Assembly: GCF_019972135.1 (NCBI RefSeq)
Contig: NZ_BPFI01000001.1
Location: 231,106-295,105 of the forward strand
DNA: 64,000 bases
Direction: 5' to 3'
DNA from: Sulfurovum sp. TSL1
GTDB taxonomy: Bacteria; Campylobacterota; Campylobacteria; Campylobacterales; Sulfurovaceae
The notes beneath the pieces are model-generated. The model searched no databases. It saw only the letters and a program-made list of their open reading frames with translations, and had not been told where the DNA came from. How positions within the stretch are numbered: the stretch's first letter is position 1; each line of letters starts with the position of its first letter. This document shows, piece by piece, positions 12,595-16,272 of this stretch. The translations under genes and the position numbers were made by a program.

Positions 12595-12608
12595 ACAATG
12601 GGTAATCA

Positions 12609-12687: not shown

Positions 12688-13647
12688 ATGAAACTTAATG
12701 ATATTGTTATCAATTATGTAAAAAAAATCATTAAAGAAGATCGAAAAAATATTTTTCATTTATTGTATTACTCTATCATTGATGCAATTCTTGTTTTATC
12801 TATTCCTCTCGCATCCGCTATTATTATCAACAGTGTATTGGCACATGCATCACTGTCTTTAGTTATTCTGGGATCAATAGTTCTTGTTTTATTTGTATTT
12901 ATTACTATTTTACAATTGCTTAAAGGGTATATTGTTGAAAAGTTTCAACAGAAAGTTTTTCTTCAAGAAGGCATAGAGATTGCGACAAAAGCAATAAATC
13001 TAGACCATGAAGATCATGATGCCGAAATTAAACATAAAAAATTAATGAACTACTTTTTTGATATTACCTCGATTCAAAAGTTCTTTCCTATTCTGTTACT
13101 TGATGGTTTGGGGCTTGTGATCAAGATCGTTGTGAGTCTTCTTTTGTTACTTGCATTTGACCCGATTCTATTTGCTGCAGGAACACTCTTTTTTTCGATC
13201 TATATCATCCTGTTGTTTCTCCTTGGGCACAATGCAGCACAAAGTGCATTGGAGCGTTCGGATGCAAAACATAGTACCATCTATTTTTTACAGCATATCA
13301 ATGAAGAAATAGGTACTGAACATGAAACGCTATCAAAGTTTAATACCTATTTAACTACGTATGTACAGGCCAGGAAAAAGTTATTTCAGATCATTATCAG
13401 ACAATTGGGATTTACTTTTTTTGCAGAAGGATTCATTTTCAGTATGTTCCTGGTCATAGGAGGTTATCTTGTTATTAACGGCAGTCTGCCGCTGGGGGAA
13501 TTTGTTGCCGCTGAAATTATTGTGACCTCTATTACTTACGCATTAAAAGGATTTGCAAAACAGCTTGATTATATTTATGATATGATCGAAGGACTCTATA
13601 AAGTCAATAAGTTGTCAGTAGGGTTGGAGGATAAGAGACATGGATAG
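12688..13647 (+). CDS. ABC-exporter transmembrane domain protein without ATPase domain
   Basis: 319 residues with about six membrane segments arranged as in type I ABC exporters: a first pair around residues 25-85, a cytoplasmic region with ATKAINLDHED, a middle pair around 135-180, and a last pair around 245-285. The chain ends (GLYKVNKLSVGLEDK) where an exporter would pass into its nucleotide-binding domain. The next gene starts 8 bases before the stop, so no ATPase domain can follow in frame. The start follows AAAAGGGG. It shares an operon with a HlyD-type adaptor and a TolC-type channel. Either an ATPase elsewhere serves it or it works without one. Confidence 0.8.
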   Translation: MKLNDIVINYVKKIIKEDRKNIFHLLYYSIIDAILVLSIPLASAIIINSVLAHASLSLVILGSIVLVLFVFITILQLLKGYIVEKFQQKVFLQEGIEIATKAINLDHEDHDAEIKHKKLMNYFFDITSIQKFFPILLLDGLGLVIKIVVSLLLLLAFDPILFAAGTLFFSIYIILLFLLGHNAAQSALERSDAKHSTIYFLQHINEEIGTEHETLSKFNTYLTTYVQARKKLFQIIIRQLGFTFFAEGFIFSMFLVIGGYLVINGSLPLGEFVAAEIIVTSITYALKGFAKQLDYIYDMIEGLYKVNKLSVGLEDKRHG

Positions 13648-14911
13648 ATTTAAGTTTGATGCATTGCAACTTGTTGAGACCAATCCTTTTGTAAATCGTA
13701 TCGGCCGTTTTACATTTGTTCTCATACTTTTTTTCATCGTCATTCTTTTTTTACCCTGGAGACAGACGGTTCAGGGTGAAGGCACACTGATCGCGTATGA
13801 TCCCACCCAGAGAATACAGTCTATCTCGGCGCCTATTGATGGTTTTATCGATACCTTTTATGTTTCTGAGAACGAACATGTACAGCAGGGAATGAAACTT
13901 TTCAATATGATCGACCCCGATAAAGACTACAAAACACGTGTGTATAAAATGAAAGAGGATTTCGAACAGCAGCATGAAAATATTGAAAATGAACTCATTG
14001 TCCTCAAACAAAAAGACACCAGTCTTCTGAATCAGAAAAAAATACGTTTAGAGCTCTATGACAAACATTATATTCAGGCAGAAGAACAGTTGAAAAGTCT
14101 ACAGCTCAAATATCAGGCGGAAAAAAAGAACTATGAGGTTCTCTTCAACCATTTTACCAGGATCAAGCAACTCTATGTTCAAAAAATAGAATCAAAAAAG
14201 CATTATGAAAAAGCCGAGAATCAATATATCAATTCGAAAATAACATTAGAGAAGATCGAAATTGATATAGAGGTGCAGAAGCGAAATTTATCCATCATTC
14301 AACAGGAAAAACAACATTTTCTGGAAGAAATAGGAAATCAGATAAGAACACTTGAAAACAATATGTTAGGAGTGGAAACACGCTTAAATATTTTAAAAAG
14401 GGACTATGAAAAACATTTGACAGAGATAGCCAGATATGAAACATCATCGGTGATCTCACAAAAAGATGGTTCTGTCATGCGGATCTTGGAAAATGACAAG
14501 AATACGTATATCAAAAAAGGGCAGCCTGTCATACGTTTTTCTCCAGATGTTAATACCAGTGCACTGTTGTTAAAGGTCTCAGACTTCAATATGCCTTTGA
14601 TGAAAGAGGGACTGCCTGTAAGGATCAGATTCTATGGATGGCCTGTGTTGTACATCCCCGGATGGCCGGTGATAAGGTTTGGTACCTTTGGAGGCATTGT
14701 GAAGAGAGTGGACCCGGTCTTGCATGAGAAAGGTGCTTACTATGCCTATGTGGTTGAAGATCCAAATGAACCATGGCCCTCTCATGAAAAACTTCGAGTA
14801 GGTACAGGTGCAACTGCATGGGTTGCCTTGTCAAGTGTGCCGATCTGGTATGAACTTTGGCGCTTAATGAATGCATTCCCAGCGAACATGGTCACGCCGG
14901 AGAAAAAATAA
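13640..14911 (+). CDS. HlyD-family periplasmic adaptor
   Basis: 423 residues: short cytoplasmic N-terminus, one membrane anchor (about residues 22-42), a beta/lipoyl half-motif (ISAPIDGFIDTFYVSENEHV), a long alpha-helical hairpin with coiled-coil character (about residues 95-265), the second lipoyl half (SVISQKDGSVMRI), and a beta-barrel C-terminus. Such proteins link an inner-membrane exporter to a TolC channel. It overlaps the exporter-like gene by 8 bases, with ribosome site GGAGGAT, and abuts the channel gene in a TAATG stop-start. Confidence 0.88.
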   Translation: MDRFKFDALQLVETNPFVNRIGRFTFVLILFFIVILFLPWRQTVQGEGTLIAYDPTQRIQSISAPIDGFIDTFYVSENEHVQQGMKLFNMIDPDKDYKTRVYKMKEDFEQQHENIENELIVLKQKDTSLLNQKKIRLELYDKHYIQAEEQLKSLQLKYQAEKKNYEVLFNHFTRIKQLYVQKIESKKHYEKAENQYINSKITLEKIEIDIEVQKRNLSIIQQEKQHFLEEIGNQIRTLENNMLGVETRLNILKRDYEKHLTEIARYETSSVISQKDGSVMRILENDKNTYIKKGQPVIRFSPDVNTSALLLKVSDFNMPLMKEGLPVRIRFYGWPVLYIPGWPVIRFGTFGGIVKRVDPVLHEKGAYYAYVVEDPNEPWPSHEKLRVGTGATAWVALSSVPIWYELWRLMNAFPANMVTPEKK

Positions 14912-16272
14912 TGAAACAAACATTTTTAAGATACTGTATCTATCTCTGTATGTGTTCGTATGATGCATTTTCCAAAGAAATTTTTACCGTGGAGCATATG
15001 AAACACTATCTGACAGAAGAAAACCCGTATATATACACTGCAGTGGGACAACAATATATTGATGCAGCGCGTATTGGATCAGCACAGGGAGGCTTTGATA
15101 CGAAGCTCTCCGTAGCGTACGATAAAAAAGAATACCCGATAAGTACAGGCGAATTTTCTGATATCTCTTTGAGCAAGCCGACAGAAAACGGTACGGAATT
15201 TATTGTAGGGTACAGAAAAGCTGAAGGGGTTCAAGAGTATAACAATATCAAAACCGGTAGTGAAGGGGAATTACGGCTGGGAGTGAAAGTACCGGTATTT
15301 TCAGTTTTGAACGATATGAACGAACGTAAATATACGCTTGATTCCGCCAGAATAAATGCTACCAGGTCGGCATTTGAATCACAAAACAATTTAAGAAATC
15401 TCTATACGCATATCGTCACTTCATATTACCAACTCCTCTACTATAGTGAGGTCCTGAAGCTTGAGAAAAGTCTCTTGCATAAAGCGACAAAAAGGAATCG
15501 TTTTATTGAGAAAAGAGTACGAACCGGAGACCTTTCGGATATCGCTATACTTGAATCAAAACAGCAGATCATTAATCGTGAACAGAGAGTTCTCAGAACA
15601 AAAAACAGTTATACCCAGGCATTACAGACATTTTTAAAGTATCTGAACCTCTCTAAAAAAGAGTTTGATCTGAGATATGTGCTCCCCCCACTAAAGATGC
15701 TAAAGAAGGAAAAGATCATTTTCCACAATGTGATCAGTCAGGCATTAAAACAAAGACCAGACCTCAAAGCCTTGGAGTCCCAACAAAGCAAACTGGACCT
15801 GGACACAGCCTATAATAGCGTATCAGCGTATCCCGAGTTAAATCTTTTTGCCTACGGCGTGCATGATATACACTATGGAGAGGGTATAAAAGTGGGACTG
15901 CAGTTTGATATCCCATTAGAAAGACGATCGTATAAAGGAAAGATGATCGAGATACAAAAAGGTATGAATCAACTTGAAGAAGAGAAAAACAGACTACTGT
16001 TAGACCTGAAAACAAATCTTAGTAATTTAATGTATGCATTGGATATTGTCAATCAAAATATAGAATTGGGGGATAAGGAAACAAAGATCGTTGAATCGCT
16101 CGAAGAAGCTGAAAATAAAAAATATGAAGTGGGTTCAAGTGACCTGTTTCAGATCAATCAACGTGAGATCAGAACATTGGAAGTCAAGAAAAAGCAATTG
16201 GAATACCATCTCAATGCGCTGGTGATACAACAGGAGATAAAAAAAGAGATGGGAGAGTATATGACACTGTAA
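14911..16272 (+). CDS. TolC-family outer-membrane channel
   Basis: 453 residues from the ATG at 14911, which overlaps the adaptor stop by one base and follows GGAGAAAAA; an upstream in-frame ATG at 14857 lies inside the adaptor gene and is less likely. The sequence is rich in long amphipathic helices and has the repeated layout of TolC proteins, with LKQRPDLKALESQQSKL at the second half and a hydrophobic N-terminus that may be a weak signal peptide. Third gene of the ABC-like export operon. Confidence 0.87.
   Translation: MKQTFLRYCIYLCMCSYDAFSKEIFTVEHMKHYLTEENPYIYTAVGQQYIDAARIGSAQGGFDTKLSVAYDKKEYPISTGEFSDISLSKPTENGTEFIVGYRKAEGVQEYNNIKTGSEGELRLGVKVPVFSVLNDMNERKYTLDSARINATRSAFESQNNLRNLYTHIVTSYYQLLYYSEVLKLEKSLLHKATKRNRFIEKRVRTGDLSDIAILESKQQIINREQRVLRTKNSYTQALQTFLKYLNLSKKEFDLRYVLPPLKMLKKEKIIFHNVISQALKQRPDLKALESQQSKLDLDTAYNSVSAYPELNLFAYGVHDIHYGEGIKVGLQFDIPLERRSYKGKMIEIQKGMNQLEEEKNRLLLDLKTNLSNLMYALDIVNQNIELGDKETKIVESLEEAENKKYEVGSSDLFQINQREIRTLEVKKKQLEYHLNALVIQQEIKKEMGEYMTL

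Follow-up and report, generated by a model that had tools for sequence, protein, structure and literature searches.

Within a 64,000-nucleotide stretch of the Sulfurovum sp. TSL1 genome (contig NZ_BPFI01000001.1; the whole stretch is referred to here as the window), a three-gene operon encodes a 319-amino-acid (aa) ABC-exporter transmembrane domain (TMD) without a nucleotide-binding domain (NBD), a periplasmic adaptor and a TolC-type outer membrane protein. We infer, with a probability of roughly 0.58, that this operon encodes a tripartite exporter spanning two membranes, whose inner part is a homodimeric TMD that runs without an ATPase and probably acts as a proton-driven secondary transporter. 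At the level of sequence, our comparisons demonstrate absence of the ATPase domain throughout a clade, deletion of docking helix 2, purifying selection, an obligate adaptor, and dead ATPase domains in relatives. A wider scenario, in which a family found in three phyla gave up ATP, its ATPase domain first dying in place and then being deleted along with the docking helix to leave a proton-driven pump working through the adaptor and the TolC-type channel, strikes us as evenly balanced between right and wrong.

An ABC-exporter membrane domain that stops before the ATPase domain

The three genes are tightly packed, with overlaps of 8 bases between the membrane gene and the adaptor gene and of 1 base between the adaptor gene and the TolC-type gene (Table 1). 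As M1 is invariant among relatives, we favor the ATG at 12688 as the start of the membrane gene over an alternative in-frame start at 12598. Among NCBIfam models, the membrane protein matches the NHLM, LssB, PrtD, and HlyB permease-ATPase models over the transmembrane part alone, and TIGR03375 is matched partially. In Pfam, its match to PF00664 is weak (E value of 0.0012, under the cut-off) and no Walker A, LSGGQ, or Walker B match was obtained, while a PF00005 scan of the organism's own genome placed no ATPase domain at the operon. An AlphaFold2 (AF2) model of the protein (predicted local distance difference test [pLDDT] score of 72.5) has a helix at residues 3-17 followed by six transmembrane (TM) helices. 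The structure prediction of the 319-residue protein alone, which the initial annotation of this DNA had called for, gives a full-length alignment with the TMD of HlyB: residues 1-319 align with residues 136-456 of 8dck_A (Z score of 27.6, root-mean-square deviation of 3.0, 312 residues aligned). Together, the transmembrane-only matches, the HlyB alignment, and the PF00005 scan bear out the initial proposal that the membrane half ends before the NBD; the protein is a six-helix ABC-exporter fold that stops where the ATPase domain would begin.

That annotation had also stated that the adaptor gene overlaps the stop of the membrane gene, as the 8-base overlap confirms, and that the other two genes are intact, which agrees with their family matches. 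The adaptor matches HlyD_3 (PF13437) and, partially, TIGR01843, and the channel protein matches the OEP family PF02321 in Pfam. In the adaptor model (pLDDT of 79.2), an N-terminal TM helix is combined with a single long alpha-hairpin, at whose tip lies an RLS TolC-docking motif (R174, L178, and S185); the best match among solved structures is EmrA. The adaptors also carry a C-terminal family signature, GWP..SGWP / YELWR, with many positions invariant in all 31 sequences compared, including the partners of dead-ATPase proteins described below. The ratios of nonsynonymous to synonymous substitution rates (dN/dS; membrane gene, 0.13; adaptor gene, 0.08-0.11; channel gene, 0.11) indicate that all three are under purifying selection.

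Table 1. Features of the operon, in window coordinates
Feature	Position	Strand	Remarks
ABC-exporter transmembrane domain gene without nucleotide-binding domain	12688..13647	+	319 aa
HlyD/EmrA-type periplasmic adaptor gene	13640..14911	+	423 aa
TolC-type outer membrane efflux protein gene	14911..16272	+	453 aa; PF02321 E 4.5e-20, two stretches
K146 codon, charged residue inside TM3	13123..13125	+	K in 46/50 ATPase-free proteins
Loss of six residues at coupling helix 2 (residues 207/208)	13306..13311	+	Segment length comparison of intracellular loop 2 (ICL2)
E247 codon, charged residue inside TM5	13426..13428	+	E in 47/50 ATPase-free proteins
E276 codon, glutamate inside TM6 and candidate for proton coupling	13513..13515	+	50/50 ATPase-free proteins

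ATPase-free relatives form a single clade in Campylobacterota

The same three genes, without an ATPase, recur in 13 loci from Sulfurovum, Sulfurimonas, Sulfuricurvum, and other Campylobacterota (43-90% identity), and the TolC-type gene is third in every locus long enough to show that position. In family-wide scans, the membrane gene was present in 18 of the 175 genomes from the organism's own family and in 32 of the 228 from a second one. No open frame of the gene in these scans was longer than 364 aa, leaving no room for an ATPase domain in any scanned copy. When 50 distinct Campylobacterota membrane proteins of similar length were aligned, all 50 were free of the ATPase domain, and the adaptor start abutted or overlapped the stop of the membrane gene wherever both could be read. 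A tree unites the ATPase-free proteins in a single clade (support of 100/100), separate from LssB-type transporters. The initial description of an export operon whose ABC component lacks its ATPase domain was therefore correct and extends to close relatives, none of which has a complete ABC protein at the locus; such a protein would have made the case here a simple local deletion or frameshift.

The membrane gene and the adaptor also travel together. In the organism's own family, the adaptor is found in all of the 18 genomes (of 175) that carry the membrane gene and in no others, and in a sample of the class it is present in exactly four genomes, those with a strong membrane-gene match; this co-occurrence rests on the two genome sets that were searched for both genes. 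Across genomes, the distribution of the operon is patchy, and the tree groups two membrane proteins of Sulfurovum with Sulfurimonas proteins (L021 and L022 versus L012, L014, and L015). These two observations hint at horizontal transfer of the operon.

Distant homologues carry a dead ATPase domain

Plasmids of Bacteroidota (Persicobacter, Aureibacter, and Riemerella) and of Sphingomonadales bear operons with the same gene order, in which a full-length protein of 550-574 aa, with 22-27% identity to the 319-aa protein, takes the place of the truncated one. These homologues are annotated as "ABC transporter ATP-binding protein," HlyD, and TolC. In an alignment with 27 live exporters, however, the Q-loop glutamine was lost in all 16 plasmid ATPase domains, and the LSGGQ signature, the Walker B aspartate, and the H-loop histidine were lost in all 15 that could be read, the sixteenth homologue ending early near an IS3 element. 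Only three of the plasmid domains, all among the four Bacteroidota copies, kept the Walker A lysine. The live controls retained Walker A and Walker B in 27/27 cases, with only minor LssB-type variants of the signature and H-loop. By Pfam, an above-threshold ATPase domain was missing in six of seven plasmid homologues tested.

The ATPase-free and dead-ATPase proteins part jointly from the live exporters with a support of 100/100, on a long branch for which the program warns of long-branch joins. Because homologous full-length operons carry dead ATPase domains, the death of the domain seems, from these comparisons, to predate its deletion; the missing ATPase would then mark the final stage of a longer decay common to three phyla.

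Two side observations concern the plasmid operons. The copy in Sphingopyxis sp. 113P3 (L125, 3923-5350 and 5295-6658) is truncated beside an IS3 transposase, a recent natural inactivation. On some Sphingomonadales plasmids, a gene for a LysR/OxyR-type regulator precedes the dead-ATPase operon (L122, 2884-3792; L126, 2867-3772; L125, 2916-3824), a possible hint of induction by oxidative or toxic compounds.

The ATPase docking site is shortened and a membrane glutamate is invariant

The spacing between anchor positions in TM4 and TM5 is exactly 60 residues in all 35 ATPase-bearing proteins (27 live and 8 dead) and 54 residues in the ATPase-free proteins (55 in one), such that all 50 are shortened. 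We take the gap to fall at coupling helix 2, an assignment based on the alignment and on what is generally known of MsbA and Sav1866. Conservation in the membrane protein is lowest in the region of coupling helix 1 (residues 103-117). A shortened coupling helix 2 together with a diverged coupling helix 1 is the pattern expected if no ATPase docks.

Three charged residues lie inside the predicted membrane helices (Table 1). The glutamate at E276 is found in 50/50 ATPase-free proteins, 8/8 dead-ATPase proteins, and 0/27 live exporters. The position of K146 is occupied by Q in the dead-ATPase sisters and is uncharged in live exporters, and that of E247 is K or Y in the dead-ATPase sisters. This distribution makes E276 the prime candidate for proton coupling. 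The dead-ATPase plasmid operons share gene order, adaptor motifs, and E276 with the ATPase-free operon but differ in that the dead domain is still attached and coupling helix 2 is of normal length.

A proposed ATPase-free export mechanism

Two precedents make secondary, proton-driven export plausible. SbmA, which has the same fold, has lost the ATPase domain and the coupling helices and is proton driven via a glutamate ladder (PMC13316013), and MsbA cut down to its membrane domain (MsbA-MD) exports ethidium driven by delta-pH (PMC4979069). In the model we propose, an ancestral type I-like exporter would have switched from ATP to an ion gradient, after which the ATPase domain would have decayed, as in Bacteroidota and Sphingomonadales, and the Campylobacterota line would have deleted the decayed domain. 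The membrane domain would hand over a substrate from the cytoplasm or the membrane, and the adaptor receiving it would dock on the TolC-type channel; the substrate would thereby leave the cell while protons flow in by antiport. An energy source other than ATP, such as the proton gradient, thus probably powers the exporter.

Several points weigh against this interpretation. We infer, rather than observe, the energy source, the proton coupling, the transport itself, and the cargo. K146 and E247 fall short of full invariance, and the helix limits of the membrane protein model put E276 near the periplasmic end of TM6. Given that position and the only moderate confidence of the model, exposure of E276 to the cavity is only a possibility, and the model is too uncertain for placing the side chains of E276, E247, and K146. 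It also still draws a helix at 110-130, around coupling helix 1, so that on the model this helix appears diverged rather than shown to be gone. Finally, as Bacteroidota were covered through plasmids only, members of the family with a live ATPase could exist on Bacteroidota chromosomes.

Alternative explanations

The membrane protein might not be an active transporter at all, serving instead as a passive channel, as a scaffold for the adaptor and channel, or as an accessory to another pump. The family-wide loss of the ATPase and the lack of a substrate gene or conserved neighbor would fit such a role, but residues of the transmembrane and cytosolic helices are strongly conserved, charges are kept inside the membrane, and membrane protein and adaptor strictly co-occur, which together make this explanation unlikely.

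It is less likely still that the exporter stays ATP driven by recruiting a stand-alone ABC ATPase or by pairing with a complete half-exporter from another locus. In its favor, the protein has the fold of an ATP-driven exporter, and split TMD/NBD genes have been reported for YddA relatives (PMC13316013). In the organism's own genome, a review of the neighbors of each ATPase gene assigned those with permeases to importer-type, FtsE, ModC, PstB, MlaF, MacB, and ABC-2 types, the others being ABC-F, SufC, repair proteins, and two complete exporters. This left just two orphans without an adjacent permease, an LptB-like ATPase (L027) and a tsf-linked one (L028), both unlinked to the operon; the PF00005 scan and this review thus revealed no free exporter ATPase in that genome. 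The tsf-linked gene lies directly after tsf (G000, C2:54002-54655). The initial annotation had suggested looking for a co-occurring stand-alone ATPase, but the tsf-linked one is present in 39/39 good Campylobacterota genomes, most of them without the operon, and so is no dedicated partner; with the ATPases of the organism's own genome reviewed singly and this orphan universal, we rejected the existence of such a partner. Within 10 kb around the operon in the 13 loci, no ABC ATPase was found except an unrelated importer-type one in L006, 2.3 kb off and on the other strand. Recruitment in trans is disfavored because every member has lost docking helix 2, no spare exporter ATPase is at hand, and dead ATPase domains occupy the docking place in the full-length relatives. 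Of the two options originally offered, an ATPase acting in trans or another energy source, the loss of coupling helix 2 and the genome review count against the first, and the second is the more probable.

Import of peptides or metabolites in the manner of SbmA, the known ATPase-free protein of the same fold and an importer (PMC13316013), is highly improbable, as a TolC-docking adaptor and a TolC-type channel are always co-encoded, which is an export arrangement. A local deletion, a frameshift, or a decaying pseudogene can be dismissed, for although the membrane gene has an internal stop in 2 of 50 genomes, 50 distinct intact relatives share a common end point and its dN/dS is low.

Cargo and genomic context

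In agreement with the initial annotation, which had noted no adjacent export substrate gene, we found neither a substrate gene nor a conserved neighbor at the operon. Neighboring genes vary between genera (5'-nucleotidase-like, porin, DUF2867/NAD-binding, TehB-like, and amino acid permease genes), and a conserved neighbor as cargo or partner was rejected on this ground. An RTX cargo was likewise rejected, as the organism's own genome has no RTX protein (PF00353). RTX repeats are not universal among substrates of type I secretion systems. A small amphipathic compound or a peptide is a more likely cargo than an RTX-type protein.

In the window, a 5'-nucleotidase-like gene (PF02872 and PF00149; 10903-12594) lies directly upstream of the operon and is absent from that place in Sulfurovum sp. 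AR (L003), while a gene for a 62-aa YgaP-like membrane protein (PF11127; 16408-16596) follows the operon and is kept at that place in the same strain. A phage or defense link was rejected: PADLOC, checked for a defense link, gave no match, and in PHROGs the membrane protein matches a general family of ABC transporters. With the membrane-domain alignment or a Bacteroidota adaptor as query, no relative was found on viral contigs.

Comparison with known systems and significance

The operon shares with type I secretion systems (HlyB-HlyD-TolC, LssB, and PrtD) the three-gene layout, an HlyB-like TMD, an RLS-type adaptor, and a TolC-type channel, but has no ATPase domain, no coupling helix 2, and no genomic RTX substrate. 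ATP hydrolysis is the defining trait of ABC exporters, yet SbmA and truncated MsbA show that protons can drive their membrane domain. The operon resembles a tripartite exporter but stands outside type I secretion for want of an ATPase. With SbmA/BacA-like proteins (SLiPT), the membrane protein has in common a type IV ABC exporter-like TMD without an NBD, an apparent loss of ATPase docking, and conserved intramembrane glutamate(s) (PMC13316013). It differs from them in keeping an N-terminal elbow-like helix, in having no added TM0 helices, and in being joined to an adaptor and an outer membrane channel, which implies export; nor does it match the SbmA_BacA Pfam family up to an E value of 1. By sequence and helix layout, it is outside the SbmA family. 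Like MsbA-MD, a laboratory truncation, it is a lone transmembrane domain, but here the truncation is natural, old, fixed, and within a tripartite system. EmrAB-TolC, whose pump is proton driven, has the same kind of adaptor, with a single long hairpin and an N-terminal TM helix, and uses TolC, but its membrane protein belongs to the major facilitator superfamily rather than having an ABC-exporter fold.

We found no description of this ATPase-free operon family in the open-access literature; one may exist elsewhere. Caution is warranted with database labels, as dead proteins of the family are listed as ATP-binding. If our interpretation is right, the operon would provide an export version of SbmA and a naturally occurring version of truncated MsbA, working inside a tripartite system. 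It would also represent a class of ATPase-free tripartite exporters whose intermediate stages are still alive, from a domain that is dead but attached to one that is gone together with its docking helix. The switch from primary to secondary transporter would thereby become testable, by comparison of these stages and through a single glutamate.
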